Of a stretch of 64,000 bases of DNA, positions 38,969 to 59,766 are shown piece after piece (the first letter of the stretch is position 1; every line of letters starts with the position of its first letter). The stretch comes from Porticoccus hydrocarbonoclasticus MCTG13d (lineage in GTDB: Bacteria > Pseudomonadota > Gammaproteobacteria > Pseudomonadales > Porticoccaceae). The notes under the pieces were generated by a model. That model was given only the letters and a program-made list of their open reading frames with translations, had not been told where the DNA came from and made no database searches. The DNA lies in the NCBI RefSeq assembly GCF_000744735.1, contig NZ_JQMM01000001.1, positions 2,356,001-2,420,000 of the forward strand, written 5' to 3'. Both the position numbers and the translations under genes were made by a program.

Positions 38969-39054
38969 GTTATCCTCCACCAACCATCCGAAACTGCCTG
39001 GATGGGCGCATCTTTTAATTGTTTATTTGAATCGTCACGCAACTGTGTCAATGA

Positions 39055-40206: not shown

Positions 40207-40382
40207 AAAACCCCCAAAAAAATCTAAATGACCAGAAAGGCCACCTTTTACTACTAACAGTGCTACGAACACCGTCTGATCGGTCGTTTTTATTGATTTT
40301 TCAGTGTGTAAACTGCAACAGAGCTGCCAGATAAACGATTAGGTTTGCCTGACAGCCCTGTTTCAGAACGAACCGGTTCGAA

Positions 40383-41834: not shown

Positions 41835-41853
41835 AGTCATACTCCCAGTTTTA

Positions 41854-41868
41854 AAATAAGTCTTATTT
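41854..41868. repeat. Perfect inverted repeat in DUF1329 leader
   Basis: AAATAAG, one T, then CTTATTT; it sits about 20 bases ahead of the DUF1329 start codon, in the 85-base gap after the DUF1302 stop. It could be an operator or a weak attenuator; too short to be called a terminator. Confidence 0.45.
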
Positions 41869-41918
41869 GTGACTATCCGGTTTTCCAATAGTTGCACAAA
41901 TTTTCATTATTATCTTTA

Positions 41919-43736: not shown

Positions 43737-44323
43737 TTTCTTCTCCCACTAATTTATTAAATATTATTAGTTGCCGCCGCACATTCCGCACAGCAATGCG
43801 AAATATAAACAGCTTCGTCCCCAACAGCAACAACAGTTTTGCCACAAAAATGTGGTAATTGCGTCCGAAAAACGGTCAATACACTAGTCATCGAGGTTTC
43901 TCCGGTCACTCCTTCTTCGCTGAACGCCTTTGTTCATGGGGTTTTCACGACATTAAACGTTTTATTATCGTACGAACCCCGATGCAAATCGTATGATTAA
44001 AGAAAAATCATGGCAAGCCCAATTTATTGGGTTTCAGACTTTTTTTTGGCCGAATGGGCCCGGCAGGTCGGCAATCTACGTCCTGTTACTCTATCGGACA
44101 GATCCGGGCACGGGGCATCACGAACGGACTGACAGGTCATGACACTGCGTGTTATTATCGGTCGCACCCATGCGGGACTTAGTATTTTTATTCCGGCGGG
44201 CAATGCCAGCGGAACGCAACCGGGCATTGAGCAACTCCAATAACAGTGAGCGCAGATGATGGGTTTACCACGTCATTGCCGATTACCCGGCCGATTATCC
44301 GACAACGGGGGAGGTCATCCACA
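43737..44323. promoter_or_regulatory. Divergent control region between DUF1302 gene and sigma-54 activator
   Basis: 587 bases without a credible gene. It has several short symmetric sites: CCACA-AAAA-TGTGG at 43842-43855, ATGATT-N7-AATCAT at 43993-44011, and CCCAAT-TT-ATTGGG at 44018-44031. I checked every GC dinucleotide on the minus side for the sigma-54 spacing (GG-N10-GC read on that strand) and found none, so the DUF1302 operon probably does not use sigma-54 directly. The palindromes are candidate regulator sites, not shown to be bound. Confidence 0.5.
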
Positions 44324-46339
44324 GTGAGGGGCCCAAGTCCTAAAAAGCCCGGCCTGATTTATCGGCCCGATGGCGACAGCCTGAATGCCCAGCGGGGGAT
44401 TGATCGCGCGTGGGAGCAATTTCTCTGCAAGGGTGGCCAGGCCAAAGATCTGCCGATCCGCGACGTAATCGCCAGCTCCTGGGAGCGCTGCCTGTCCCAG
44501 GGCGTGAACCCGGAACAGAAAGCGGCACCACTGCTGGTGTCTGAAAACACCCTCTCCCACCACCGGCTGAGAAACTCCGATTTATTGCTGTGCGCAGAAC
44601 CTGTGCTGGAACAGGCGCGCCTGTTTCTGCAGGATCTCGAAACCATCCTCTACCTGACCGACTACCAGGGACTAAACCTGCAGATTGTCGGCGACCCCAG
44701 AACCATTGACGATGCAAGAGATATCGGACTGGTGGAGGGCAGTGGCTGGAACGAAGGCCATTCCGGCTCCAACGCCGTGGGTACCGCCATGGCAACCCGC
44801 AAGCCGACCCAGGTGCACGGCGAAGAACACTACATTCAGGGCTTCAAACCCTGGACCTGTACAGCAGCGGTGATCGCCGACCCCTACGACAACCAGATGA
44901 TGGGTGTGATAGACCTGTCCGGACTGTGCAGCATTTACGATAAATTCCATGTGCCGCTGGTGGTGGCCTGGGCCAGCCAGATTCAATCGGGCCTGGCGAA
45001 AAAGACCTCGGACCTGTGGAGCCTGATCCTCGAACACAGCAACAGTCAGTTCGGCCACTACCGCAACACCGGCAAGCTGTTGCTGGACAAGCAGGGGCGA
45101 TTGATCAACTCTACCGCCAACGCTGCTGCCGCACTGGACTCCCTGGGTATCGACTACGATCCCGAGACCAAACGTCGCCTGTCGATGCAGCGCTTCGGTG
45201 GCGATGAAATCGTCTACCCGCACGACGCGGGGCTGTGGGTGTCGGAGGATTGGGTGGAACCGATACTGCACAAGGGCAACATTGTCGGCTTTCAGGTGCT
45301 GGTGCCGTCACCGCGCCGGTCTACCTCCAAACCCGCCGCCGAGCCACTGGCTGCCGGCCCGACGACCAGCCTCGATCCGTTTGACGGCATCTACGGCAAG
45401 AGCCCCTCTTTTCAGGCCAGTGCGGACAAGGCCCGCAAGGCTGCTAATACACCGCTGCCAGTACTGATTCTGGGGGATACCGGGGTCGGCAAGGAAGTAT
45501 TCGCCAAGGCCATTCACGACAGCAGCCAATACGCCGACGGGCCATTTATCGACCTGAACTGCGGCGGCTTCACCCGGGACATTCTCAGCAGCGAACTGTT
45601 CGGCCATGTGGAGGGGGCGTTCACCGGCGCGCGCAAGGGCGGCATGGTCGGCAAAATCGAGGCGGCCAATGGCGGCACACTGTTTCTCGACGAAATTGGC
45701 GAGCTGCCGCTGGAATTGCAACCGGTGTTTCTGCGGGTACTGCAGGAGAAGAAAATTTACCGGGTGGGGGACATCAAACCGATCCCCGTGGATTTCCGAC
45801 TGATTGCCGCCACCAACCGCGACCTGAAAGGCGCAGTGAACGAGGGGCTGTTCCGCAAGGATCTGTATTTCCGGCTATCCACCGTGACCATCAGTCTCGA
45901 CCCACTGTCGGGCCGCAAGGAAGATATCGAAGGAATCGCTCAATTGGTGATGGCGCGCATCCGCAAAACCGACGACATCTCAGCGAAACGCTTCTCACCG
46001 GGCCTGATGACGGCCCTGAAAAGCCGCGAGTGGCCCGGCAATATCCGTGAACTGGCCAATGTGGTGGAGTGCATGTGTTTTATGTCCACAAACGAAACCC
46101 TGACGATTGACGATCTCCCCGAAGGTTATCGGCCAGGGGAAAGCAATTTAGAGCCGGAGCACGTCAACGCCTTCATCACACCACCCCAGGGTAATCTGGA
46201 CAGGGTTGAAAAATCCACCATTGAGGCCGCCATCAAACAGGCGGAAGGCAACATGACCCAAGCGGCCAAACACTTGGGCATCGCCAAGAGTACGCTCTAC
46301 CAGAAAATGAAAAAATACCATCTGAAGAAGCCGACCTGA
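44324..46339 (+). CDS. Sigma-54-dependent activator, AcoR/AcxR-like (GAF-AAA+-Fis)
   Basis: A 671-residue enhancer-binding protein. An N-terminal GAF-type sensor (about residues 45-290) contains [16 protein letters not shown], typical of AcoR-class regulators. The AAA+ domain (about 350-590) has Walker A GDTGVGKE, the sigma-54 contact loop GAFTGA, and Walker [14 protein letters not shown] Fis-type helix-turn-helix is near the C-terminus ([22 protein letters not shown]). The chosen start is the GTG at 44324, with GGGGGAGG about nine bases upstream; a longer GTG start at 44246 has no ribosome site. AcxR of acetone carboxylase operons is of this class, so control of the carboxylase operon is the natural inference. 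Confidence 0.92.
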
Positions 46340-46373: not shown

Positions 46374-47096
46374 CTAGTACATGTGCTGGCCACCGTTGAT
46401 GGACAGGGTAGAGCCTGTAATAAAACCACTCTCATCCGACACCAGAAACAGTACGCCCCGAGCGATATCATGGGCGGAACCAAGCCGACCAACGGGAATA
46501 CGGGCAACAATTTTTTCCAACACGGCGGCTGGCACGGCCCTCACCATATCAGTTTCCACATAGCCTGGGGCTACCGCATTAACCGTGATCCCCATGCTCG
46601 CACCTTCCAGCGCCAGCGCCTTGGTAAAGCCGTGAATCCCGGACTTGGCCGCAGCGTAATTGACCTGTCCATACTGACCCGCCTGACCGTTCAGTGAGCC
46701 GATATTGACGATACGACCAAAACGGCGCTCACGCATGCCCTCAATCACACAGCGACTCATGTTGAAACAGGAGCCCAGATTGGTATCAAGCACCTCCTGC
46801 CAAGATTGCGGGGACATTTTGTGCAAAGTGCCATCGCGGGTGATCCCCGCATTATTAACCAGAATGGAGACGGGGCCGATATCACGTTCTATCGTTTCGA
46901 TACCGTTTTTACAGGCATCGAAATCGGATACGTCGAACTTGTAAGTGGGAATACCGGTCCGCTTCCTAAACTCGCTGGCCCGGTCATCGTTGCCTCCGTA
47001 ATTGGCCACCGTCAGATAGCCCGCCTCCTTGAGCTCAATAGCAATGACTTCACCGATACCTCTTGTTCCCCCAGTCACCAGTGCTACTTTTGGCAT
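46374..47096 (-). CDS. SDR-family 3-oxoacyl/acetoacetyl-CoA reductase-like (PhaB-like)
   Basis: A 240-residue classical short-chain dehydrogenase. The cofactor loop is ALVTGGTRGIGEVIA, with an NNAGITRDGTLHKM segment close to PhaB. The Ser-Tyr-Lys catalytic triad lies in NIGSLNGQAGQYGQVNYAAAK, and the end is FITGSTLSINGGQHMY, as in PhaB. It would reduce acetoacetyl-CoA with NADPH or oxidise a related secondary alcohol. AGGAG lies eight bases before the ATG at 47096. A terminator separates it from the thiolase upstream, so it is at least partly its own unit, convergent with the activator gene. Confidence 0.85.
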   Translation of the reverse strand: MPKVALVTGGTRGIGEVIAIELKEAGYLTVANYGGNDDRASEFRKRTGIPTYKFDVSDFDACKNGIETIERDIGPVSILVNNAGITRDGTLHKMSPQSWQEVLDTNLGSCFNMSRCVIEGMRERRFGRIVNIGSLNGQAGQYGQVNYAAAKSGIHGFTKALALEGASMGITVNAVAPGYVETDMVRAVPAAVLEKIVARIPVGRLGSAHDIARGVLFLVSDESGFITGSTLSINGGQHMY

Positions 47097-47301
47097 CTCA
47101 TCATCTCCTGATTTTTTATTCTTGCTACATCTACAACTACCGGTACCAAGCAGGCTGCGCAAAATAGCTTGCCGGAACCAGCTCTATCATAACCCACGGG
47201 ACAATTATTAAACCAAGCCCACAGGAAAACAAATACTGTGACAACAAAAGTTCAGGAAGTTTGATTGGAATCAAGACTTTTTGGGGTGACGGGGAGATAT
47301 C

Positions 47302-47359: not shown

Positions 47360-48625
47360 CTATTTGAGTCGACGCATAACCGAGACACAATTGGTCACAC
47401 CGGAGCCACCGATATTGACGGTCATCGCCACTTCCGGATTACCCTTTGCCGCCACCCCTATCGGCTCGCCCACCAGTTGTTTGTAGGCCAGCGCATGCAT
47501 CGATGCACCTGTGGCACCCACCGGGTGGCCCTTGGATTTCAGGCCACCAGACAGGTTGATCGGACAGTCACTGTCTGGATCGTATTTACCACTCATGAAA
47601 TCGTAACCGGCACGGCCCGACTCGGACAGACCGATAGCTTCAACGCAGAGAAGCTGATTGATGGTGAAACAGTCATGCACCTCCGCCAGATCGAGATCAT
47701 CCACGGTGGCTCCCGCTTCCTTCAGCGCCAAGTCGACGGCGTGACGGGTGGCGCGAAGCTCATGCAGACGACCGATGCGTTCCTTGAGCATCATCCGGTC
47801 CGTCACATGGCCGATACCGGACAACTCAACGGCATGCTTGAAGCTGGCTTTGGCATTATCGCTGGAAGTGAGCACCACTGCGGCCGCCCCATCGGTAATC
47901 AGTGAGCAATCGTGCAGGCGCAATGGCGGGGCGATCATCGGGTTACTACCCTTGCCCGATTCCGGCAGATTGAGGATCGCCTCGGCGGTAGTCAACTTGT
48001 TGATGTCCGGTATACTACCGGGGCCAAAATGCGCCAGTGGATTCTGGATACCATTGCGGTAATTCAGGGCACTGACATGAGCCAACATGATACGCAACTG
48101 CTCGGGAGAAAGTTCTTCTTTCTCTTGGTAAGCTTTACCCAGTTCAGCAAACAAACCGGGGAAGGTCATGCCCTTGTTACCTTCTTCCGGCCAGTAGGAA
48201 CAACAGGACAGCGCATGGGTCACACCAGCGGTATTCAGGGTGTTCATTTTCTCGACGCCGATCGCCAGTACATTTTTGAACCGGCCAGAGGCCACTGCAT
48301 AGGCGGCATTGTAGATGGCCAGAGAGGAGGTGGCACAGGCTCCCTCGGTGCGGGTGGTGGGCTTGAACAGCAATCCTTGAGGATCAATTTCCAGCGCCAG
48401 CGGCCCGACGTGCTCCTGGTTCACGAACAAAGATGGAGAGCAGGAGCCGACCCAGATGGCATCAATGTCCTTTGCTTCCAGCCCGGCATCAGCAATGGCA
48501 CCAGCTCCCGCCTCTGTCAGCAATTCATAAAAGGATTTGAGATCCTCGACCTCACCGGTTTCACGGTCGCGTTTGACGAACGCACCAAACTTGCTGTTAT
48601 ACGCACCAACAATACTAACCTTCAC
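47360..48625 (-). CDS. SCP2-type thiolase (acetyl-CoA acetyltransferase-like), 421 aa
   Basis: A thiolase-fold enzyme with the nucleophile C97 in TEGACATSSLAIYNAAYAVASG. Aspartate/cysteine in VHDCFTINQLL and the histidine in LSGGLKSKGHPVGATGASM complete the site. The pattern belongs to the SCP2-thiolase/lipid-transfer group, not to the canonical FadA/PhaA group. In a ketone route it would split a 3-oxoacyl-CoA made by the adjacent ligase, giving acetyl-CoA and a shorter acyl- or aroyl-CoA. The start is a GTG with GAGGA at six bases. Same strand as the ligase, 91 bases downstream of its stop. Confidence 0.9.
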   Translation of the reverse strand: MKVSIVGAYNSKFGAFVKRDRETGEVEDLKSFYELLTEAGAGAIADAGLEAKDIDAIWVGSCSPSLFVNQEHVGPLALEIDPQGLLFKPTTRTEGACATSSLAIYNAAYAVASGRFKNVLAIGVEKMNTLNTAGVTHALSCCSYWPEEGNKGMTFPGLFAELGKAYQEKEELSPEQLRIMLAHVSALNYRNGIQNPLAHFGPGSIPDINKLTTAEAILNLPESGKGSNPMIAPPLRLHDCSLITDGAAAVVLTSSDNAKASFKHAVELSGIGHVTDRMMLKERIGRLHELRATRHAVDLALKEAGATVDDLDLAEVHDCFTINQLLCVEAIGLSESGRAGYDFMSGKYDPDSDCPINLSGGLKSKGHPVGATGASMHALAYKQLVGEPIGVAAKGNPEVAMTVNIGGSGVTNCVSVMRRLK

Positions 48626-48716: not shown

Positions 48717-50282
48717 TCAGATTTTCCGACCCGCCTCTTCCCAGAAAACCTTGCGAATCTCTTTTTTCAGAACCTTGCCAACGGGACTGCGCGGCAGCTC
48801 ATCCCAGAACAGAATCTGCTTGGGCGCCTTCACGCTACCCAGTTTGCTTTTACAGTATTGAATAATCTCCTGTTCGTCCGGTGGCCGGGATTTATCTTTT
48901 AACTCCACCACTGCGGTAACCTGCTCACCCCATTTTTCATCGGGGATGCCAATCACAGCGCAATCCTTGATTGCCGAATGCCCCCAGAGCAACTGTTCGA
49001 TTTCACTGGGGTAGACATTAAAACCGCCGGATATGATCATATCCCGCTTGCGGTCTACAATTGCCAGATAACCCTGCTCATCAAAAACGCCGATGTCCCC
49101 GGAGCGCTGCCAGCCGCCCTCACAGCGGATCGCCTCAGTGGCTTCGGGATTCCGGTAGTAGGCCCGCATCAGCAGGTTGCCCCTGATAGCAATTTCTCCT
49201 TCCTGCCCCGGCTCGAGGAGCTTGCCCTCGTCGTTCAAAACAGCCACCTCAACGTGGGGTGAAGTCCTGCCACAGGAACGCAGTATAGAGGGGTTGTTGC
49301 CATCCAGCGCCAGAACGTGATCTTCGGCGGACAGGAAGGTACACAGCATCGGCGCTTCAGCCTGACCGTAAGTCTGCACCATCACCGGCCCGAAAACATC
49401 AATGGCTTCCTTGAGCTTTTCCACCGACATCGGCGCAGCCGCATACCAGAAATAACGCAGGCTGCTGTAATCCCAGGCTTTCACCCGGGGATGGGCCAGC
49501 AGCATGTAGATCGCAGTGGGTGGCATGAACAGGTGAGTGACCTGATAGGTTTCGATAGTGGCCAGCAGCCGTTCCGGCACCATGCCATCCATCACGACGA
49601 CATTGGCGCCCTGACGGATTACCTCGAAAGAGGCGATACCGGCGGCATGAGTCATGGGGGCCGCCACCAGATAGCAGGCAGGAATGTCAGGCAACGGCAT
49701 CAACTCGTTCTGAATCGCCGAAAGCGTATCCCAGGTGATGCTTCCCCACTCCGCCAGCTTGGAGTCGCCTGTGGTACCCCCGGTGGCAAACAGGTTGACT
49801 AGTCCTGCCCCGTCATCCACATCGCTTTGCGAGTCGACGACCAATGCCTGACCGGAAAGCGCACGAAGATCAATATCGGCGACACGCTGGCCATTGAGTT
49901 CAATGAGCTGATCACCGGGAAAAGTGTCAGACAGTTCAGGGAAAGCGGTGGCGACACTGTCGTCCACAAAGAGTTTTACCGCACCGGATTTTTCAATCAG
50001 CTTGCGGTTGGCCTCAAAGGTGTTGCGCATATTCAGCGGCAACCAGACAGCACCAACCCGGGAAATGGCGAAGATGCAGCAGTAGGCCGCCACCGAATTG
50101 GGGGCGTAAGTAGCGACGATGTCCTGTCGCTTCACCCCCTGTTCCTTTAACAACGTGGCAATCTTGATTGAGGCATCGACCATTTGCCGATAGCTCAGCG
50201 ACAGGTCATTGTCCAGGTCGACAAATTTCGCTTTCTCTGAAAATAGCGCAGGACTCTGATCGAGAAAATCGACTAGACGCAT
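48717..50282 (-). CDS. AMP-forming acyl-CoA ligase, 521 aa
   Basis: An ANL-superfamily ligase. The phosphate loop (A3) reads ATGGTTGDSK. QTYGQAEAPMLC is motif A5, WQRSGDIGVFDEQGYLAIVDRKRDMIISGGFNVYPSEIE is A7-A9, and the catalytic lysine is in SPVGKVLKKE (A10). Coming directly after the five carboxylase genes it is placed like the benzoylacetate-CoA ligase gene (bal) of Aromatoleum. It should activate the 3-oxo acid produced by the carboxylase. GAGG precedes the ATG at six bases. The acid specificity is inferred from context only. Confidence 0.9.
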   Translation of the reverse strand: MRLVDFLDQSPALFSEKAKFVDLDNDLSLSYRQMVDASIKIATLLKEQGVKRQDIVATYAPNSVAAYCCIFAISRVGAVWLPLNMRNTFEANRKLIEKSGAVKLFVDDSVATAFPELSDTFPGDQLIELNGQRVADIDLRALSGQALVVDSQSDVDDGAGLVNLFATGGTTGDSKLAEWGSITWDTLSAIQNELMPLPDIPACYLVAAPMTHAAGIASFEVIRQGANVVVMDGMVPERLLATIETYQVTHLFMPPTAIYMLLAHPRVKAWDYSSLRYFWYAAAPMSVEKLKEAIDVFGPVMVQTYGQAEAPMLCTFLSAEDHVLALDGNNPSILRSCGRTSPHVEVAVLNDEGKLLEPGQEGEIAIRGNLLMRAYYRNPEATEAIRCEGGWQRSGDIGVFDEQGYLAIVDRKRDMIISGGFNVYPSEIEQLLWGHSAIKDCAVIGIPDEKWGEQVTAVVELKDKSRPPDEQEIIQYCKSKLGSVKAPKQILFWDELPRSPVGKVLKKEIRKVFWEEAGRKI

Positions 50283-50310: not shown

Positions 50311-51171
50311 TTAACCCTTCAGGCTCGACAGAGTATCAAGAACCAACTCGGGCTTCGCATCCGGCGGAATAGTCAGGTAATAAAACCCATCCACCGTTGG
50401 CAGCGACCCACCTGACTGGTCACCCCAGAGCAGGTCAGTCACCTCAACACCTTTGGATTTGCCACCCAGCGGCGATGTCGATGGAGCAATGGTAAAGGCC
50501 AGATCCGCGGGCACATCGAAATCGGCATCCGCTGTGGGAAGATATAACCCCACAGACCAGCGGTAGTGTTTTGCCACATTATAAACGGGCTGATACCAGG
50601 TCAGTTCGGCACCGCTGGCAGGCATCAGTTCGGGATCTTCCACCAGCAGCACACCGGAAAGCTCGGTTTCGCTAAAATAACGCAGAAAATCGGCCACGTA
50701 CATTGCTGCCGTATCGACGCTCATTTCATCCGGTTCGGCAGTCTCTCCATTGGCGGCCTGATGGGCCTTGACCAGCAGGGCACGAGGAGATGGCATCACC
50801 ATGACCAGCGGTGCAGAGCTGCTGTAGTTATTGGCCAGGGCTGTTATGACCTCTGCCAACAATTCGCGCGGCGCATAGGCTTCCAGCATAGCTTTCAGGG
50901 CGGCAGTGACCCGCCGTTTGCCCGCCATGGCCGGGAGGGCCTCCGCATCTTCCCTGACCCAGTGCTGAAACAGGTCCCAAACATCGATAACAACCACCTG
51001 GGCTTTCACCAGACCATGGGCCTGACGATAAAATGACATGTAGGCAGCGGGGTTGGTCCAGGGGTTTTCATCCTTTCCCAACAGCAATTTTTTAGTGTAG
51101 TCGTTGAAGTTAATCCAAAGCCGGGGGGTTTCCCCCCCGGCTGCCAGATAGGACACAAGATCTAGTGCCAT
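50311..51171 (-). CDS. Putative epsilon-like subunit of Apc-type carboxylase, 286 aa
   Basis: I recognise no enzyme motif. The sequence is mixed alpha/beta with a start MALDLVSYLAAGGETPRLWINFNDY and several hydrophobic strands (QVVVIDVWDLF, LVMVMPSPRALL, SGVLLVEDPEL). The size (about 31 kDa) and its place after the HyuB-like gene match the 34-kDa fifth subunit (Apc-epsilon) of acetophenone carboxylase, which dissociates from the core. The ATG at 51171 has AGGA at about six bases and lies one base after the upstream stop. The alternative is an unrelated accessory protein. Confidence 0.6.
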   Translation of the reverse strand: MALDLVSYLAAGGETPRLWINFNDYTKKLLLGKDENPWTNPAAYMSFYRQAHGLVKAQVVVIDVWDLFQHWVREDAEALPAMAGKRRVTAALKAMLEAYAPRELLAEVITALANNYSSSAPLVMVMPSPRALLVKAHQAANGETAEPDEMSVDTAAMYVADFLRYFSETELSGVLLVEDPELMPASGAELTWYQPVYNVAKHYRWSVGLYLPTADADFDVPADLAFTIAPSTSPLGGKSKGVEVTDLLWGDQSGGSLPTVDGFYYLTIPPDAKPELVLDTLSSLKG

Positions 51172-51172
51172 A

Positions 51173-53449
51173 CTATTTCCTTTCATTCTCGGGCGGGAGA
51201 CCAGCGTCTTTCCTGGCCGCTGCAAGTTTGGCTTCCAATTCGGCAATTCTCACGTCTTTTGGATGTGTGACGTAGATCGGGCCGGGATTTTGAGCATCGC
51301 GCTTATCGTCGAGACTACCGGCATAAATCACCTCGTTATCGCCATTCCAGGCACCGTAGAACGGAATGTTCTCGGGCGGATGATCCTTAACGTGTTTCTT
51401 GACGAACTCGGCATAGGGCACGCCCTGCTTTTTCCGCTGCTCGCGATACTCGGCACGCAGTTTTTCGGTAGCCTCGTCATCCACCACCAGCGTGGTTTCG
51501 TTGAATTCCACCTTGTAGAGCTGTTTAGCCCACTCGGGAGAAATCAGACCTTCCTCAATATCCATGATCACATAGGTGGGATCACGCTCGAGGGGGTCAC
51601 CGTAACCACCGCCGCTACCCTGGGAAATCATGTACAGCTCACCGCGTTTGGAAATGTCGAAACCCATACCCATGTGGTGGGTGGTGTATCTGGCATTCGG
51701 GAATGGCTGCTCATTCATAATTTCGTGGATACTGTGTTTGAACAGTTGCGGATTCTCCAGCAAAACCTCGTACACGTCTACACCCTGAACTTTACACAGG
51801 GGGTAAGAACCCCCGGCATAGCCGCCGAACAGACCCTGGATAGTAGGCACCTTGGAACCCTGAGTAGTGGTCATGAAGCCCCACTGTTCACTGTCCTTGG
51901 TAGCCGCGATCATGGTGTAGCCCATGCCACCGCGGTATTTGCCGGGGGCCTGGGTATTGGCCGTCATTTTCTTGGACACCAGTTGCAGGAACGGAACTTC
52001 TTCCTCGTTCATTTCCTGTTCACCGATATCCGCCATAGTGGCAAAAATCGGGGACAGTGCGTGCTCACCATCGCGGTCCATACGGGCACCGCCACCCATA
52101 CCGTTCAGGTCGGCACAGAGGTTACCCAGGGTTTCACCGTGCTGGTTGACACCACCCCAGATGAAGGTGTTGATCATATTGTGCCAGGGTGCCAGTACAC
52201 GGGTGTACTTGTCCGGACAGCTGTACAGGAATTTGGCGCAAGCGTGCTGGGCCACTGTAAAGCTGTGGAAGATAGACATCAGACTCTGGGAGTTGGGCGC
52301 CGAGTAGGAACAGTCCACTAGGGTGCCGGGCTGAGTCACGAACTCCACGGGCGACAGACCCGCCTGACCACGGGGCAGATCCGGCCAGATATGGTTCATG
52401 AAGGCCTGACCTACCATGCCCTTCATACCGGGCAGCTGGGTATTGATAGCGCGGTTGGTCAGCTCGGGGCTGGTACCGGAGAAATCAAAAATGAGCCGAT
52501 CACCTTTCTTGATCACCGCCAGATTGATTTTCAGCAGCGCATTTTCACGCAGGGTGCTGTCCATGATGGTCTGAGTGCGCACGGTCATGTCGGGCCACTC
52601 GGAAATGCGGCGACGGACTTCGGTTACCACACTCTCGTTGGTGTATCGCAGACAGGCTGTCAGGGCATCAGGACCGTCAGTAGCCAGCACTTCCTTGATG
52701 CGTTTTTCAAGACGCATACAGGCGAACAGTTTTACCTTCATATCCTCGTATTGCAGCTTCGGCTCGCGTACAGAATTCTGCAGGAAGGTCAGCAGGTCTC
52801 GCTTGATCTCGTAGTTTTCCACCACTTTGAACGGGGACATTTTCAGACCTTCGTCAAAGGAGGTTTCCGCCATGGAAGGCATGCCACCCGGCTCAATTGC
52901 ACCACACTCACCTTCGTGAACAGTGGATGCCACCCAGCAAACCAGCTTGCCTTCGTGGAATACCGGCAGAATCATGCTCTGGTCGGTATTGTGCACGTTG
53001 CCATAGCGGGAGTCGTTGTGGATGAACCCATCCCCCGAACTGACGCCGACGGTTTTTTCATCGATCCAGTTCTTGATAATGAACTTGATCGGGTGGTGAA
53101 CCAGTGCGGAGAAGATCAATACGCCACCGGCACTACCGATCGTAAGGTCACCAGACGCCGAGTAGATACCGGTGATAATGTCACCCCACTTGGCACCGGG
53201 AGCTGCACCCATCTGCTCAACCATCTCAAAACCTTCTTCACAGGCAGACTGAAGCCGGTCCCGAATGGAGGCGATCTGGTTGAGGTCGGTGAACGTTTCC
53301 ATCGCCTTTTCTTCTTCGGGCGTGCGCGGCATGATGCTGTGGTCGCGCATGATCTCGGGATCGGGCCCCAGGAAAAGGGTAGTATCCTTGAGGAATTTTT
53401 CGATCAGCTCCTGATCTTGCAAAGCTGAATTGTTTGTTTCGTTATTCAT
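51173..53449 (-). CDS. HyuB-like carboxylase subunit (Apc beta type), 758 aa
   Basis: A hydantoinase B/oxoprolinase-family protein. Family markers are the opening DRLQSACEEGFEMVEQMG-like region, GDGFIHNDSRYGNVHNTDQ (with metal- and substrate-binding residues), FDFSGTSPELTNRAINTQLPG, and GSGGGYGDPLERDP near the C-terminus. In acetone and acetophenone carboxylases this subunit performs the C-C bond-forming step between the phosphorylated ketone and carboxyphosphate. The ATG at 53449 follows AGGGG at nine bases; an in-frame TTG lies two codons before. It lies 22 bases after the HyuA-like gene. Confidence 0.88.
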   Translation of the reverse strand: MNNETNNSALQDQELIEKFLKDTTLFLGPDPEIMRDHSIMPRTPEEEKAMETFTDLNQIASIRDRLQSACEEGFEMVEQMGAAPGAKWGDIITGIYSASGDLTIGSAGGVLIFSALVHHPIKFIIKNWIDEKTVGVSSGDGFIHNDSRYGNVHNTDQSMILPVFHEGKLVCWVASTVHEGECGAIEPGGMPSMAETSFDEGLKMSPFKVVENYEIKRDLLTFLQNSVREPKLQYEDMKVKLFACMRLEKRIKEVLATDGPDALTACLRYTNESVVTEVRRRISEWPDMTVRTQTIMDSTLRENALLKINLAVIKKGDRLIFDFSGTSPELTNRAINTQLPGMKGMVGQAFMNHIWPDLPRGQAGLSPVEFVTQPGTLVDCSYSAPNSQSLMSIFHSFTVAQHACAKFLYSCPDKYTRVLAPWHNMINTFIWGGVNQHGETLGNLCADLNGMGGGARMDRDGEHALSPIFATMADIGEQEMNEEEVPFLQLVSKKMTANTQAPGKYRGGMGYTMIAATKDSEQWGFMTTTQGSKVPTIQGLFGGYAGGSYPLCKVQGVDVYEVLLENPQLFKHSIHEIMNEQPFPNARYTTHHMGMGFDISKRGELYMISQGSGGGYGDPLERDPTYVIMDIEEGLISPEWAKQLYKVEFNETTLVVDDEATEKLRAEYREQRKKQGVPYAEFVKKHVKDHPPENIPFYGAWNGDNEVIYAGSLDDKRDAQNPGPIYVTHPKDVRIAELEAKLAAARKDAGLPPENERK

Positions 53450-53471
53450 AATCAAATACCCCTATATCCAC

Positions 53472-55622
53472 TCAATTTTTTGCATCGGTGCGGAAGAACC
53501 ATACGGCGCCCTGCTCGGCAGAGACATACTTCCAGCCCGGTTCAATCAAGTAGGTTGTTACGTCTGAGGCCACAATACCGGGACCCACAATTTCTGTTCC
53601 CGACGGGATGTCAGTTTTCCGCCAGACCGGTGTTTCGATTGCCTTGGCGCCAGTGCTGACAAAGTAGCAGGTGCGTTTGGCAATGGGTTCTGGCGGTGCG
53701 GAGCGCTCACTTTCCGGGATCGGCTTGATGTGTTTGAAGTGCACGGTTTCGTGCTCTACAAATGAAGCCACACGAACGGTGTTGATACGAATACCCGCTT
53801 CCGGCGCCTGGCTACCTTCACCAAAGCGTTTGCCATAGTCCTCGGAGAACTGTTGCAGGATATTCATGACATCCATGGCAGATTCCAGAGTGTGCTTGGG
53901 CACGACCACGGTGGTCTGAACCAGCTGGTTACCATAGCGCATGTCCAGTTCCAGCGAATAACGGATGTCCTCAAGGTTCATACCCTGACGCAGCAGATCG
54001 TTTTGACCGCGGGAGCTCAGCTCGGCAACGATGTCGTTGAAACGCGTGTAGTCATCGAACACTTTACGAGTGTTGGAATCGTACAGCACCATGAACAATG
54101 ACATTTCATGAATGTGCATCTGGTGCATGTTGCCTGCACCCACTGCCGAGAATACCGAACTCATGGGTGGCGCCAGAATTTTGTCAATGCTCAGATTGCT
54201 GGCAATACCACAACAGTGCAGCGGACCATTACCACCATAGGCGAGCATGGTGAACTCTTCGGGATCATAACCGCGAACTCGCAACTCAGTGTGCAGACCG
54301 TTAGCCATGTTGCTGTCAACTTTTTCCTTGATCAGCAGCGCCGCTTCAATCGGTGATACATCCAGGTCGTCACAGAGTGTTTCTTCAATGGCAAACACAG
54401 AGCGCTTGGGGTTCAACGGAATGTGGCCGCCGGCATAATTGGTGGGGTCCAGATAACCCAGCACCAAATCGGCGTCCGTCACGGTAGGACTCATGCCACC
54501 ACGGTCATAACAGGCTGGACCGGGATCGGAGCCGGCGCTCTTCGGACCCACGGCAACCGCGTTGTACATCCGGTCAAAGCTGGCGATGGAACCGCCGCCC
54601 GCACCGAGGGTAACCAGATGGACCATAGGCACAGACACCAACCAGCGGTCAATAACCGGGTTGAAATCGTAGTGCTTGATACCGCCTTCCACCACGATAC
54701 CGATGTCATAGGAGGTACCACCCATATCGGTAGCAACCACACTGCCGAGATCGGCTTCCTTGGCCAAATGCTCCGCTGCACTGATACCGGATACTGGACC
54801 GGAGTGGATGGTTTGCAGCGCATCGGTTGAGTTCAACTGTGCCATACCACCGGAGTTGTGGATCACCAACATCGGCTTATCGTACTTATTGGAACGCAGG
54901 TTTTGTTCCAGCTGACTCATGGCGTGATACATGGTGGAGTGAAGATAGCCATCCACAATCGCCGAGGTCGCACGAACATATTCGCCCTTCCGGCCAGCAA
55001 CGCGGTGAGACAAGATTACCGGAATGGAACCCAGCAGATGCGAGGGATACTCATCCAGCAAAATCTGTTCAACACGTTTTTCATGGTCGGGGTTAACCAC
55101 GGAGTTAACCAGACAAACCACAATAGCCTGAGCACCCTTATCCACCAGTTTTCTGATCTTGACGCGCACGTCCGGCTCATCAAGCGGCATAACCAACTCA
55201 CCCTGAAAACCGAGACGCTCGCGAACACCCTCGATCATGTGCGGCAGAACCAGCGGGGCCGGACGCTGAGCATCGGGCAGGTTTTGTTTGCCCAGCTCGT
55301 CCAGACCTTCACCGTAACCACGTCCACGACTGAGTGGCACCATCGCCTCGTAACCCGCCGTCACCAACATGCCGATGCGAGGGCCTTTGTGCTCGATCAG
55401 GGCATTGGTACCCAGCGTAGTGGCGTAGCGAACCGAATCCACTCCAGAAAGGATACTTTCCATGGTGAGACCGAGTTCAGTGTATGCACTCTCCAAGGCT
55501 TCATTAAAACCGAGAGAGAGGTTTTGGTGGGTCGTCAACGCTTTGGTTTCAATGTACTTGTCATCCCAAACTACAAAGCAATCGGTAAACGTACCACCGA
55601 TATCTACTGATATACGTTTCAT
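53472..55622 (-). CDS. HyuA-like ATPase subunit of ketone carboxylase (716 aa)
   Basis: A hydantoinase A/oxoprolinase-family kinase subunit. The ASKHA phosphate-1 loop is VDIGGTFTDCFVVWDD, ATTLGTNALIEHKGPRIGMLVTAGYE follows, and DMGGTSYDIGIVVEGG is the phosphate-2 loop. MLAYGGNGPLHCCGIASNL and the hydrophilic C-terminal domain complete the family plan. It would phosphorylate the ketone (or bicarbonate) with ATP. The second HyuA-like gene of the operon is 56081-58015, and two such subunits are characteristic of Apc. The start ATG follows AAAAAGG. Confidence 0.9.
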   Translation of the reverse strand: MKRISVDIGGTFTDCFVVWDDKYIETKALTTHQNLSLGFNEALESAYTELGLTMESILSGVDSVRYATTLGTNALIEHKGPRIGMLVTAGYEAMVPLSRGRGYGEGLDELGKQNLPDAQRPAPLVLPHMIEGVRERLGFQGELVMPLDEPDVRVKIRKLVDKGAQAIVVCLVNSVVNPDHEKRVEQILLDEYPSHLLGSIPVILSHRVAGRKGEYVRATSAIVDGYLHSTMYHAMSQLEQNLRSNKYDKPMLVIHNSGGMAQLNSTDALQTIHSGPVSGISAAEHLAKEADLGSVVATDMGGTSYDIGIVVEGGIKHYDFNPVIDRWLVSVPMVHLVTLGAGGGSIASFDRMYNAVAVGPKSAGSDPGPACYDRGGMSPTVTDADLVLGYLDPTNYAGGHIPLNPKRSVFAIEETLCDDLDVSPIEAALLIKEKVDSNMANGLHTELRVRGYDPEEFTMLAYGGNGPLHCCGIASNLSIDKILAPPMSSVFSAVGAGNMHQMHIHEMSLFMVLYDSNTRKVFDDYTRFNDIVAELSSRGQNDLLRQGMNLEDIRYSLELDMRYGNQLVQTTVVVPKHTLESAMDVMNILQQFSEDYGKRFGEGSQAPEAGIRINTVRVASFVEHETVHFKHIKPIPESERSAPPEPIAKRTCYFVSTGAKAIETPVWRKTDIPSGTEIVGPGIVASDVTTYLIEPGWKYVSAEQGAVWFFRTDAKN

Positions 55623-55676
55623 AACCTTTTTCCTAAAACAGACCTAATTTATTCAATCACCAATCAACAAGCCGTA

Positions 55677-56081
55677 TCAGTGCTTGTGGGTGTGACAGCG
55701 ATCTACCAGAATATTGGGGCCTTTCACCGGCTCGAGAATCTCTTCGCGGTGACTCCACTGCTCTTTCAGGGCATCAATATCTACTTCCATATCGTAGAGT
55801 GGCATATGGTTGGGAAAGGTATATTCAACCTCTACCTGAGTGCCACAGGACGGACAGTAAAACTCGTAAATGTTGACCCACTCCCTGTCAGGACAGAAGG
55901 TGAAACGGTACTTTTCAGGGTCGATAATGGACGGGTGGATATCTGCTGGATCACGGTTGTACACCAGCAGTCCCTCTTTGTAGTTACCACGGGCTGAACC
56001 AACCACATGGTCACACACCCGGCACTCCCAGTTTTCCGAATCCAGATCAATACGGAGATATTCAGTCATCAACACTTTCAT
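55677..56081 (-). CDS. Small zinc-binding carboxylase subunit (Apc/Acx gamma type), 134 aa
   Basis: The sequence has the two Cys pairs CRVCDHVVG (residues 20-23) and FYCPSCGTQVEVEYTFP (about 74-77), forming a zinc ribbon, and a C-terminal segment rich in His and charged residues. This is the acetone carboxylase gamma-subunit family, shared with the 15-kDa Apc gamma. It probably bridges the two halves of the complex. Its ATG overlaps the upstream HyuA-like stop by one base (TAATG). Confidence 0.88.
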   Translation of the reverse strand: MKVLMTEYLRIDLDSENWECRVCDHVVGSARGNYKEGLLVYNRDPADIHPSIIDPEKYRFTFCPDREWVNIYEFYCPSCGTQVEVEYTFPNHMPLYDMEVDIDALKEQWSHREEILEPVKGPNILVDRCHTHKH

Positions 56082-58015
56082 TATTTGTCCCCCTTGGTCA
56101 GGCAGATATCGCCCAGCTCAGTCACCACGAACTCCCAACCTTCGCGAACCAGACAGGTAAAGAATTCTTCCTCAAGGATAGCCGGTCCTGTGCCGTGGGC
56201 ACCGGGCTGCATATTGTTCACTTCATAGACAGGAACGTCGCTCCAACCAGCCGCACCGTTAAACAGTGAGCGGTTTTTAGCCGAGTTGGCCTGAGCCTTT
56301 TTGGACACTTCCGCGTGCTTGTTGTCTTCAGTTTTCAGCTTTTTACGTACCGCAACTTCGAGCGTCACGTCGTCAGCTTTTGCCATGTCCTGCGGGACTG
56401 AAACTGTATGCCCGAGCTCATGGATCGACTCGACACCGGCTTTGTCTGCCACCAGTCTGGCTGTAACTTCATATTCACCCTTGCCATAGCCCTCGGCAAA
56501 CATGTCTCGCTCACCGCGCTCCATCAGTGCGGCATAGGCCGTTTCCAGAGCCTGCTGACGGCTACCAGTCAACACGGTGGAATAATTCTGACCGATATCG
56601 CAGGAACCAATACCAAAGGCACTGAAAACCGCCGCCATTTTGGGCACAAACACGGTCGAAATCCCGCAGCCTTCAGCGATGCCACAGGCATTCATCGGAC
56701 CGGCGCCACCGAAAGCCAGCAACACGGTATCGCTTTCAATTTCACCAAAAGATTTCAGTTCCCCGGCGATTTTTTGCTCGAAGGCATCACGCAGCTTGAG
56801 CAGGGCTTCATCTGTGGTAACCCCCAGCGGCGTAGCAATGTTTTCAGCGATAGCCGTACGGGCTCGCTCAAGATCAAGAGCCAGACCACCGCCAAAGAAC
56901 GTGGATGGATCCAGCAGACCCAATAACAGGTTTACATCGGTGATCGTGGCATTCTTGCCACCACGACCAAAACAGGCCGGACCAGGTACTGCGCCGACAC
57001 TTTCCGGACCTACCTGGATAGCACCGTTCTTCACCGTCAGAATGGAGCTGCCTCCCACACCGGGACTGGCAATTTCACAGAGTGCAAAGGAGATAGGAAC
57101 ACCTTCAACCGTACCGCGACGCTGCTCGTGCACACCGTGTCCGATCACATGACCGATGTCCGTAGTAGTACCACCAACGTCCATGGAAAGCACATTGGGC
57201 AGGTTGTATTGCTTGCTGAAGGTTTTAACCCCTTCCATGCCACCACGTGGACCAGAGCTGTATGTTTTTACAGCAATCGTTTTTGCAACGCGCGATGCAT
57301 CCCCGTCGTTGCGGAAAATCAGCAGCGGGTTCTTGGTGCGATACTCGCGAAGACGGTTTTCGGCGTTATAGAGAAAGTTCTCCATGGCCGGATGCAAAAA
57401 TGAGTTAATCATCGCTGTCCAGCAACGGCGCTCCGTGGACACATCATCGGCCAGCTCACTGGCAAACAACATTGGAACAGCACCGAGCAGATGGCGAGGA
57501 TAGTTGTCAAAGGCAATACGTTTGAACTGAGCTTCGTACTCGTCTGCCTTCTCGGACTCAAAACAAACCACAATACGGTTGGCACCCACGGAAGTGAGAC
57601 GGGTGATGACCGAAGTGGTATCCGCACCTTTTGATTCATCATCCACATCGGCCAATTCAACTTCAGAAACCCTGTCGCCAATCAGGAAGTCATAGAGCTC
57701 CGGATCCTGCTCACGCAAACGGGCGGGCAACGTAGAGCCCTTGTTGATGATCAAACCGAGTCGTGGACCTTTACGTTCAACAATGGCATTGGTTCCCTGC
57801 GTGGTTGAATAGCGGATATGATCCACTTCAGCCAACAACCGGGCGACATTTTCTTCTCCGTATACTGCCTTGGAAGCAGACCGCAGACCATCAAAAAAAC
57901 ACTTACTCAAATCGTAAGGTGTTGTCAGAGTTTTGGTCTTGTAGAAGTTGTTTTCTGTCAGCACACAGATATCTGTGAGCGTACCGCCATTATCGATATT
58001 TATTAGCATTCCCAT
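56081..58015 (-). CDS. HyuA-like ATPase subunit of ketone carboxylase (644 aa)
   Basis: First gene of the operon. Its loop INIDNGGTLTDICVLTENN is the ASKHA phosphate-1 motif with an unusual Asn-Gly in place of the common Gly-Gly. YSTTQGTNAIVERKGPRLGLI and SMDVGGTTTDIGHVIGHGV are the following family motifs, and VLLAFGGAGPMNACGIAEG is the adenosine loop. At about 70 kDa it is the shorter of two HyuA-like subunits, so one of the pair probably activates the ketone and the other bicarbonate. AAGGT lies eight bases before the ATG. A sigma-54 promoter lies about 107 bases upstream. Confidence 0.9.
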   Translation of the reverse strand: MGMLINIDNGGTLTDICVLTENNFYKTKTLTTPYDLSKCFFDGLRSASKAVYGEENVARLLAEVDHIRYSTTQGTNAIVERKGPRLGLIINKGSTLPARLREQDPELYDFLIGDRVSEVELADVDDESKGADTTSVITRLTSVGANRIVVCFESEKADEYEAQFKRIAFDNYPRHLLGAVPMLFASELADDVSTERRCWTAMINSFLHPAMENFLYNAENRLREYRTKNPLLIFRNDGDASRVAKTIAVKTYSSGPRGGMEGVKTFSKQYNLPNVLSMDVGGTTTDIGHVIGHGVHEQRRGTVEGVPISFALCEIASPGVGGSSILTVKNGAIQVGPESVGAVPGPACFGRGGKNATITDVNLLLGLLDPSTFFGGGLALDLERARTAIAENIATPLGVTTDEALLKLRDAFEQKIAGELKSFGEIESDTVLLAFGGAGPMNACGIAEGCGISTVFVPKMAAVFSAFGIGSCDIGQNYSTVLTGSRQQALETAYAALMERGERDMFAEGYGKGEYEVTARLVADKAGVESIHELGHTVSVPQDMAKADDVTLEVAVRKKLKTEDNKHAEVSKKAQANSAKNRSLFNGAAGWSDVPVYEVNNMQPGAHGTGPAILEEEFFTCLVREGWEFVVTELGDICLTKGDK

Positions 58016-58121: not shown

Positions 58122-58137
58122 TGCAATAGACATACCA
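58122..58137 (-). promoter_or_regulatory. Sigma-54 (-24/-12) promoter of the carboxylase operon
   Basis: On the minus strand the site reads TGGTATGTCTATTGCA, giving GG and GC with the exact 10-base spacing and a near-consensus TTGCA at -12. The expected start of transcription is about 95 bases before the first HyuA-like gene. Its presence fits the sigma-54 activator encoded in the same cluster. Confidence 0.75.
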
Positions 58138-58148
58138 ACTTATTATTG

Positions 58149-58422: not shown

Positions 58423-58890
58423 TCAGGCCGAGTAATACTCAATGTAAAACTGCACGTCTCCCATTGCCGGACTGAGACTGTGCGTGAGATCGGGAGCCAT
58501 GACCCCAGCAAAGCCCTTGTCGAGTAGAAAACCACGGCTGGCAGGCACGCCTGGCTCAATAACGAACTGCAACATACCCTCTTTGACCACAACCCTGGCC
58601 CATACCCCGGGCTCCGTAGAGAGGCCACCCTGCCATTCGCTCGGCATATCCGAACGCTGATACACCGGAGTGGTTTCGACCAACGTCATACCATCGGGGA
58701 TTTTAGGCATATCGCAGTCCACACACTCAACACTGTCACCAATATGTTCCTGTCGTCCCTTGCCGGTGCCAATCCAGCGGCACTCCATGTAGGGAGGATT
58801 GTGCTTCATCTGCAATTCGTGACCACATTCCAGCTCCGCCACCCACTCCTGAAAGCGGTCCAGGTGAAAACCCTCTATGACTCTCTGCAT
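58423..58890 (-). CDS. DUF3565-DUF1971 fusion protein, 155 aa
   Basis: Two small domains in one chain. Residues 1-57 show MQRVIEGFHLDRFQEWVAELECGHELQMKHNPPY...CVDCDMP, the DUF3565 zinc-ribbon-like pattern. Residues 60-155 show MPKIPDGMTLVETTPVYQRSD, AGVWARVVVKEG-like sequence and a PALGDVQFYIEYY-like end, the DUF1971/TehB N-terminal cupin. The second half is found in tellurite-resistance-related proteins. The ATG at 58890 is the first after a run of stops in frame with the domain; an earlier in-frame start at 58926 is possible. Function unknown. Confidence 0.75.
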   Translation of the reverse strand: MQRVIEGFHLDRFQEWVAELECGHELQMKHNPPYMECRWIGTGKGRQEHIGDSVECVDCDMPKIPDGMTLVETTPVYQRSDMPSEWQGGLSTEPGVWARVVVKEGMLQFVIEPGVPASRGFLLDKGFAGVMAPDLTHSLSPAMGDVQFYIEYYSA

Positions 58891-59142
58891 AACATCAAAC
58901 CTGCGATTAACTGATACACCGTACACGCCGAATAGTTTTCAACGCCCAATACCAGTATAGGGATCACTGTGGTTTCTTGCAGGCCGCATGGAAAGTTTTG
59001 TCGACAATAATCCTGCAATCCCCCGCCCCAAACTGGCAGCACTGGAACTTGTGGCACTGCCTGTCTGGCACTACGCTATAGAGTGGTTTTCCATTGTTAT
59101 TTATTTGGATATAACTCTTGTTTAGGTCGGAGGTATGAAGGG

Positions 59143-59766
59143 ATGAAATATTTAATGATCCTTTATGTAGCTGCATCGATAGCCGTGACGGGCTGTTCAC
59201 CAGGCGACGCTTCAGAATCAGAACAGGAAATATCGGCTAATGGTTTTTCTCCGTATGTCGATGAGCAGGGAAACATTAGCCGGCCAGATAATTTTCGTGA
59301 AAACTGGGTTCATCTCGGTACCTGGTTTGTGAAGGAGGATGATCATGCAAGTGGCCCCGGTGTTCACGATGTCTACGCTACACCTGAATCCGTTAAAGAA
59401 TTCAAGAAAAACGGTCAATGGCCCGATGCTACAGTGTTGATAAAAGCCGTTTCCGGAATTGAGAAGAAGCAGCTATCTACAGGAAATGCACAATGGGCCG
59501 GCGATACCGGTGTCTGGTTTGTGATGGTGCGCGACCGGGAAAACCGATTTCCGGACAACAAGGCCTGGGGCGAAGGCTGGGGTTGGGCTTTATTCAAGGC
59601 AGATGCGCCCAAAAAGAATGTAACAACCACCTGGCATGGCGAAGGGTTCAATAATTGTTTTGGCTGCCATGTGCCGGTTAAAAGTACCGAATGGGTTTAT
59701 ATCGACGGCTATCCCACCGTGAGGGATTTCGCACGCTATCCGGAACTGGACGGCCCTTCAGAATAG
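59143..59766 (+). CDS. Cytochrome P460-family lipoprotein, 207 aa
   Basis: A signal peptide with the lipobox AVTGC (cysteine near residue 17) makes it a periplasm-facing lipoprotein. The body contains DNFRENWVHLGTWFV near the start, HDVYATPESVKEFKKNGQWPDATVLIK in the middle, and the heme c motif CFGCH with H in the C-terminal half. This is the layout of cytochrome P460 and cytochrome c'-beta, which act on hydroxylamine or bind NO. GGAGG sits nine bases before the ATG at 59143. No ammonia-oxidation genes are near, so NO/hydroxylamine detoxification is the more likely role. Confidence 0.82.
   Translation: MKYLMILYVAASIAVTGCSPGDASESEQEISANGFSPYVDEQGNISRPDNFRENWVHLGTWFVKEDDHASGPGVHDVYATPESVKEFKKNGQWPDATVLIKAVSGIEKKQLSTGNAQWAGDTGVWFVMVRDRENRFPDNKAWGEGWGWALFKADAPKKNVTTTWHGEGFNNCFGCHVPVKSTEWVYIDGYPTVRDFARYPELDGPSE

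Follow-up and report, generated by a model that had tools for sequence, protein, structure and literature searches.

The window analysed here is a 64,000-nucleotide stretch of the Porticoccus hydrocarbonoclasticus MCTG13d genome. At positions 50311–58015 it carries a real, complete gene cluster for a predicted ketone carboxylase of the acetophenone carboxylase (Apc) type. Its subunits, their order, motifs and phylogeny, a promoter-like site and the linkage to neighbouring genes are established by sequence. Our preferred reading, held with moderate confidence, is that the cluster encodes a biotin-independent carboxylase of five subunits that belongs to the Apc branch and would use ATP to carboxylate a ketone that is apolar, and most likely aliphatic or alicyclic, and not acetophenone. 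The five genes are as follows (aa, amino acids):

56081–58015, minus strand: apcA-like, alpha' (second ASKHA kinase-like subunit), 644 aa; phmmer match to 5l9w_b, E 9.1e-87
55677–56081, minus strand: apcB-like, gamma zinc-ribbon subunit, 134 aa; 5l9w_C, E 6.1e-28
53472–55622, minus strand: apcC-like, alpha (predicted ketone-activating kinase-like subunit), 716 aa; 5l9w_B, E 4.1e-163
51173–53455, minus strand: apcD-like, beta subunit, 760 aa; 5l9w_A, E 7.8e-88
50311–51171, minus strand: apcE-like, predicted epsilon subunit, a 286-aa orphan; family alignment A2 and hhalign links to ApcE and UROD proteins

Subunits and gene order

The preliminary description had reported five adjacent minus-strand genes with an Apc-type architecture, and the open reading frames agree with it in place, size and order. 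The beta frame encodes 760 aa from a TTG and 758 aa from an ATG two codons downstream; the epsilon frame encodes 286 aa from its ATG and 311 aa when an upstream TTG is taken as start. The proposed set of two HyuA-like proteins, one HyuB-like protein, a gamma subunit and an orphan is borne out by Pfam, which assigned Hydantoinase_A twice, Acetone_carb_G and Hydantoinase_B and left the fifth protein without a match. Each of the four core subunits has a different chain of the Apc core 5L9W as its closest PDB relative. From 5' to 3' the genes encode alpha' (ApcA-like), gamma (ApcB-like), alpha (ApcC-like), beta (ApcD-like) and the orphan epsilon, followed by a CoA ligase, which is the order of apcABCDE and the ligase in Aromatoleum (PMC5214803). 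The window thus resembles ApcABCDE of Aromatoleum aromaticum EbN1 (core, 5L9W; epsilon, 9FOU) in its five subunits, their order and the adjoining ligase gene. Because the identical gene set and order recur in related Porticoccus contigs, the cluster is not a chance arrangement.

Both kinase-like subunits keep their phosphate and adenosine motifs, gamma its zinc cysteines and beta its metal residues. Alpha' contains DNGGTLTD, DVGGT and GAVPGP, and alpha contains DIGGTFTD, DMGGT, GSDPGP and RERLGFQG. The ASKHA motifs are therefore present in both, and the R/KER fingerprint in alpha only, where R/KERiDsxG reads RERLGFQG with D changed to G. The gamma zinc ribbon retains its four cysteines as CRVC and CPSC pairs, and beta D92, H155, D158 and H180 align with D65, H123, D126 and H148, the residues named for ApcD (PMC5214803). 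ATP, zinc and metal motifs, membership of the Apc branch and a putative epsilon in the same slot are common to the window and EbN1 Apc. The four NCBI Apc models are the top matches of their subunits, yet scored far under their cut-offs (350.7/1250, 119.8/250, 598.3/1500 and 327.3/1500 bits), and in the narrow sense of the NCBIfam equivalogs the proteins do not qualify as Apc. The ApcA cut-off was passed by two of the four EbN1-like Rhodocyclaceae genomes.

Phylogeny and distribution

A tree of the HyuA-like proteins, proposed in the preliminary description as a check, placed alpha with Apc and apart from Acx and the hydantoinase and oxoprolinase references. The tree comprised 59 alpha rows chosen from 238 extracted locus proteins (alpha, alpha' and others) and was built by a quick search without bootstrap. 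The window alpha lies inside an Apc branch of 49 rows (Shimodaira–Hasegawa-like approximate likelihood ratio test, SH-aLRT, 99). Not part of this branch are the Acx rows, among them the Acx alpha that the same genome encodes, and the two hydrolase references (hydantoinase and oxoprolinase). Within the branch, the window alpha belongs to a 32-row clade (SH-aLRT 99) and EbN1 ApcC to a separate 15-row clade (SH-aLRT 96); the branching among these two clades and a third pair of rows lacks support. A second tree united 25 alpha' rows, window and EbN1-type ApcA included, in one clade (SH-aLRT 99). The EbN1 cluster is represented by locus L165, as its alpha agrees with 5L9W chain B at every one of the 689 residues compared. 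On this placement alpha is a member of the Apc branch in another clade than EbN1 ApcC, to which it is 38% identical. Loci of Helicobacter (species other than H. bizzozeronii) and of Rhodococcus jostii RHA1 pRHL2 lie in the window's clade, and no characterised member of that clade was found. As of 2017, a single Apc-branch enzyme had been characterised (PMC5214803).

The same data bear on an ATP-dependent amidohydrolase (hydantoinase, oxoprolinase or lactamase), which we regard as very improbable. The HyuA and HyuB folds are common to both kinds of enzyme, 7HK5 and 6YRA are lower-scoring matches, and a caprolactamase alpha model reached 416.6 bits on the 716-aa protein, missing its cut-off of 1000. 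Known hydrolases, however, have two subunits (PMC5214803) and no gamma, whereas the window has one; alpha' is missing from all 18 Hyd/Acx-type loci, alpha branches with Apc, and genes for a CoA ligase and a thiolase follow. AcxABC (5SVB, 5M45) shares ketone chemistry and distant homology of alpha, beta and gamma with the window, but has neither alpha' nor epsilon and forms a separate clade; the window has more than its three subunits and lies outside the Acx clade.

Among 144 genomes searched, the beta subunit was found at 84–98% identity in 11 of 16 congeners (one in pieces) and at 47–54% in seven genomes from other genera of the family. Matches to alpha', gamma and beta occur in 59 of the 61 non-Porticoccus loci with alpha identity of at least 53%, among which L091 and L182 represent one contig. 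The epsilon profile matched in 50 of them, partly by construction, as 20 of its 22 rows were drawn from these 61 loci; three of the 11 loci without a match are too short or cut (L080, L095, L172) and three are from Nevskiaceae. The combined locus survey (profiles and neighbours) covers the loci outside L001–L034 and L142–L164. Among the best 80 loci of the genome scan, the window's clade spans Pseudomonadota, Actinomycetota, Campylobacterota, Bacteroidota and haloarchaea. In congener G015 the cluster extends over two contigs (L051, L052), with apcC and apcD each matched in two pieces, and L053, from a distant genome of the order (G138), is an Apc-branch cluster with an alpha about 36% identical to the window's.

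Apc-type clusters like the window's are therefore widespread and partly published. The preliminary description had expected the cluster to widen the family's range, which does not hold, since apcABCD(E) clusters in other bacteria have been described (Weidenweber 2017, PMC5214803) and the genome papers on H. bizzozeronii and R. ruber report 'acetophenone carboxylase' clusters. We know the latter two from these descriptions; their neighbours differ from the window's, and the available parts of the two papers contain no assay of them. Its other supposition, an aerobic host, was correct: P. hydrocarbonoclasticus MCTG13d is strictly aerobic and degrades polycyclic aromatic hydrocarbons (PAHs) (PMC4472908). 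Aerobic use of Apc is not new, because Aromatoleum also uses it aerobically (PMC4729919).

Proposed substrate pocket and probable substrate class

Seven residues have been named as lining the proposed alpha pocket (Weidenweber, PMC5214803). They read LFNPIQT in all five EbN1-type alpha proteins and TIHPIHL in 45 of 68 from the window's clade, with near variants in the remainder; the count takes one alpha per locus and includes near-identical Porticoccus copies and both L091 and L182, which are the same contig. Relative to Apc, the window shows L81T, F281I, N282H, Q344H and T345L and keeps two of the seven residues (P and I). At the F281 position, every one of the 68 clade proteins has I, V or L, all five EbN1-type proteins have F, the two Acx rows have I and L, and the 22 other Apc-branch rows have mostly Y, H or F.

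Acetophenone as the default substrate was rejected on the failed model cut-offs, the tree position and the pocket residues; the enzyme is probably an Apc-type ketone carboxylase that is not for acetophenone. Like the preliminary description, we name no single ketone; cut-offs and pocket do not indicate acetophenone. A drifted narrow-sense Apc could still carboxylate an aryl ketone (acetophenone, acetylnaphthalene or another aryl methyl ketone derived from alkylated PAHs), in keeping with the shared five-gene architecture followed by ligase and thiolase and with a PAH-degrading host (PMC4472908). We consider this unlikely, given an alpha outside the EbN1 clade, the five pocket changes, a ligase that differs in kind from the one in the EbN1 cluster and the failure of all four Apc models to reach their cut-offs.

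Relatives of the cluster in other genomes bear on a further alternative, a carboxylase for short-chain ketones (acetone, butanone), which would be another type of enzyme with the function of AcxABC. In three Helicobacter loci the cluster adjoins genes for a CoA-transferase and thiolase-like proteins, and true Acx is absent from all three genomes, with best Acx-alpha matches of 28%. Like the pocket residues, these neighbours and the missing Acx suggest to us that the clade acts on aliphatic ketones. The H. bizzozeronii paper describes the same neighbours and notes the parallel to Helicobacter pylori acxABC. A Hydrocarboniphaga cluster is followed by an acetoacetate-CoA ligase over its cut-off. 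In the fetched flanks of the 61 non-Porticoccus clade loci, CoA-transferase A and B genes occur in 10, and an acetoacetate-CoA-ligase-like gene (at least 53%) in five, one in each count being the query. Acx alpha was found at 65–66% in four of 15 genomes searched and the remaining 11 lack true Acx. Four of the 15 contain both enzyme types, which speaks against a short-chain substrate. The window genome likewise encodes a true acetone carboxylase outside the window (G000:C1:500553-504831, L002), whose alpha is 65.3% identical to the 5SVB alpha over 685 aligned residues and falls in the Acx clade. The window set also has another ligase, a thiolase that is presumably SCP-x-like and, nearby, a transporter module for apolar compounds. 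Taken together, a short-chain substrate for the window enzyme is doubtful.

A monoterpene or isoprenoid ketone was kept as a tentative lead only and rejected as a named substrate; one narrow literature query on isoprenoid ketone carboxylation matched no paper. Two FMO-like matches in the genome were considered for a Baeyer–Villiger route.

The predicted epsilon subunit

The window epsilon has no Pfam or NCBIfam match and no useful PDB match, and in comparison with EbN1 ApcE it is barely recognisable. Its same-slot relatives form one family (alignment A2, 22 rows). In hhalign comparisons, whose values are pairwise E-values on small alignments, A2 matched a set of intermediates (98.0%, E 2.3e-13), UROD-type fifth genes (94.4%, E 8.7e-8) and, as a weak direct match, the EbN1-type ApcE set (36.1%, E 3.8e-4), against 0.1% for an unrelated control. 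The UROD set in turn matched the ApcE set (99.7%) and the intermediates (99.0%). The solved ApcE 9FOU was matched by the UROD-type set (E 6.6e-28) and the intermediates (E 6.8e-6), and not by A2; the fifth gene of L114 was matched by both the A2 profile (E 2e-6) and the UROD profile (E 8e-27). The window epsilon is thus most likely related to ApcE and the UROD proteins at a great evolutionary distance, the connection running through the intermediates.

Among 21 fifth genes scanned outside A2, in deeper Apc-branch clusters, seven belong to the UROD family over the Pfam cut-off (L060, L100, L101, L102, L103, L114, L115), five carry a UROD signal under it (L107, L166, L167, L168, L169) and nine show none, including L165, which is EbN1 ApcE. 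The UROD-like gene stands between gamma and alpha in some deeper clusters (L100, L103, L169) and between alpha' and gamma in L060 (L060:16001-16969); as its position varies, the fifth-gene slot moves. A literature search found no paper that links ApcE with UROD terms or names the 9FOU entry, and the depositors of 9FOU may already be aware of this fold.

Neighbouring genes and control

The genes downstream of the cluster, and a candidate promoter upstream of it, are:

58122–58138, minus strand: predicted sigma54-type promoter, TTGGTATG-N4-TTGCA, 107–123 bases before the apcA start
48717–50282, minus strand: AMP-forming acyl-CoA ligase, 521 aa (PF00501, PF13193)
47360–48625, minus strand: thiolase, 421 aa (Thiolase_N, Thiolase_C_1; NF005704 at 341.3 bits, cut-off of 412 missed)
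46374–47162, minus strand: acetoacetyl-CoA/3-oxoacyl-CoA reductase (SDR; TIGR01829 at 336.2 bits, above its cut-off of 302.1)
44246–46339, plus strand: sigma54-dependent activator, 697 aa (Pfam: GAF, AAA+, Fis HTH)
41919–43736, minus strand: AmeA-like DUF1302 protein, 605 aa (Pfam; gene order as in AmeABCD of Castellaniella)
40383–41897, minus strand: AmeB-like DUF1329 protein, 504 aa (Pfam; sole full-length copy found in the genome)
39055–40272, minus strand: AmeC-like YCF48/BNR protein, 405 aa (Pfam)
36620–38983, minus strand: AmeD-like MMPL/RND transporter, 787 aa (Pfam; HAE3 model at 164.7 bits, cut-off of 351.9 missed)

We take the thiolase to be of the SCP-x-like PRK07516 kind. The ligase differs from its EbN1 counterpart: the ligase after EbN1 apcE carries PF14535 and that of the window PF13193, and their best alignment covers 24 residues (E 0.002). 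The sigma54 activator faces the apc genes and adjoins the SDR gene in all Porticoccus loci that extend that far. This sigma54-type control differs from that of EbN1, for which two-component systems are predicted (PMC4729919).

The promoter-like site is the sole match to its pattern in the window, against 0.01 expected, a figure flattered by choosing the pattern after reading the sequence. The pattern follows the sigma54 consensus; a stricter version allowing one mismatch had no match at apcA. Like sites lie 113–129 bases before apcA in seven of nine further Porticoccus loci in which the apcA start is complete and preceded by more than 100 bases; the other two, L040 and L062, have none; L039 and L092 are cut inside apcA and were not counted. 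Sites at 125–137 bases occur in L070, L071, L095 (Xanthobacter) and L091, and most loci of other genera have none. The candidate site and the activator argue for induced expression of the cluster.

Further genes were seen near the cluster and its relatives. A second RpoN-like sigma54 factor gene lies by the apc cluster, near a sigma54 activator, in L055 (L055:23188-24483) and also in L064, L065 and L066. In fetched flanks, a CobW-type GTPase, a possible metallochaperone, is encoded in 15 of 20 tight-clade non-Porticoccus loci (e.g. L068:15341-16651, L055:24490-25749); cobW does not occur in the window, and the two good copies of this genome sit just before the window start. Upstream of apcA, a small gene at 58423–58926 fuses DUF3565 and DUF1971 and is kept in four other Porticoccus loci, and 59083–59766 encodes a cytochrome P460-like protein.

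Downstream of apc, genes for DUF1302, DUF1329, YCF48-like and RND proteins follow one another, the same four families in the same order as in AmeABCD, the apolar-monoterpene efflux transporter of Castellaniella defragrans (PMC6394551). Unlike AmeABCD, the putative window module stands beside a predicted ketone carboxylase. Ame-like genes follow the regulator in all eight Porticoccus loci that extend past it, although the stretch ends inside some of them. Six of the 20 tight-clade non-Porticoccus loci (alpha 75–78%) have two or more of the four within 13 kb; of these six, five come from the Rhodocyclaceae-family set or are so titled and one from a betaproteobacterial metagenome-assembled genome. 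At least two also occur near the Apc-branch loci L102, L170, L171 and L184, and near none of the 18 Hyd/Acx-type loci. We take this linkage as favouring an apolar substrate. A grouping of apc-adjacent DUF1329 copies into a separate score class was dropped, as genome search scores do not bear it out.

Discussion

Catalysis, substrate class and pathway order are what we infer from these observations. If the enzyme works as has been proposed for Apc, two ATP would be turned into ADP for each ketone carboxylated: alpha would phosphorylate the ketone enol, alpha' would make carboxyphosphate from bicarbonate, and beta and gamma would form the core with the metal site. Docking of epsilon would then let the two activated substrates meet, giving a 3-oxo acid. 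The neighbouring ligase would convert this acid to its CoA ester and the thiolase would split the ester into acetyl-CoA and a shortened acyl-CoA. The sigma54 activator would switch the gene set on, and the AmeABCD-like module would handle the apolar compound at the envelope.

Several points weigh against an apolar, non-aryl ketone as the substrate. The structure from which the pocket was proposed has no ketone bound (PMC5214803), and since the pocket hardly varies over a clade with very different neighbours, it may be a sign of methyl ketones of any kind, not of apolar ones. The deepest forks of the Apc branch in the alpha tree lack support, and the outgroup branches are long. As to the linkage with Ame-like genes, fewer than two were found in 14 of the 20 tight-clade non-Porticoccus loci (two of the 14 under 10 kb), and 11 of the 18 Hyd/Acx-type loci used as controls are shorter than 13 kb. 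The six linked genomes of Rhodocyclaceae type hold 4–11 DUF1329 matches each, so that chance could account for part of their linkage. Pseudomonas putida uses the same four families for growth on Tween 20 (PMC10866462), and an Ame-type module is therefore not ketone-specific. The host degrades PAHs, making an aryl ketone possible (PMC4472908), and the H. bizzozeronii authors, citing low similarity, suggest an alternative pathway, not an acetone carboxylase.

Beyond the window, we tentatively raise a broader possibility, itself rather speculative. The large subfamily beside Apc might be a second solution for the carboxylation of aliphatic ketones, replacing AcxABC in some bacteria (Helicobacter genomes) and acting in others (Porticoccus and some Rhodocyclaceae) on bulky apolar ketones that may be isoprenoid. 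The epsilon of this subfamily might be a worn-down UROD-family protein, a decarboxylase-type fold helping to make rather than break a C–C bond to CO2.

If the pocket and neighbour reading is true, the 'acetophenone carboxylase' labels given in this clade are wrong on substrate. A compact, apparently regulated cluster in a cultivable, strictly aerobic isolate offers a direct route to the substrate of the clade and to the role of epsilon. Should the substrate be an apolar ketone from oil or algal lipids, aerobic degradation of hydrocarbons would gain a step that fixes CO2.

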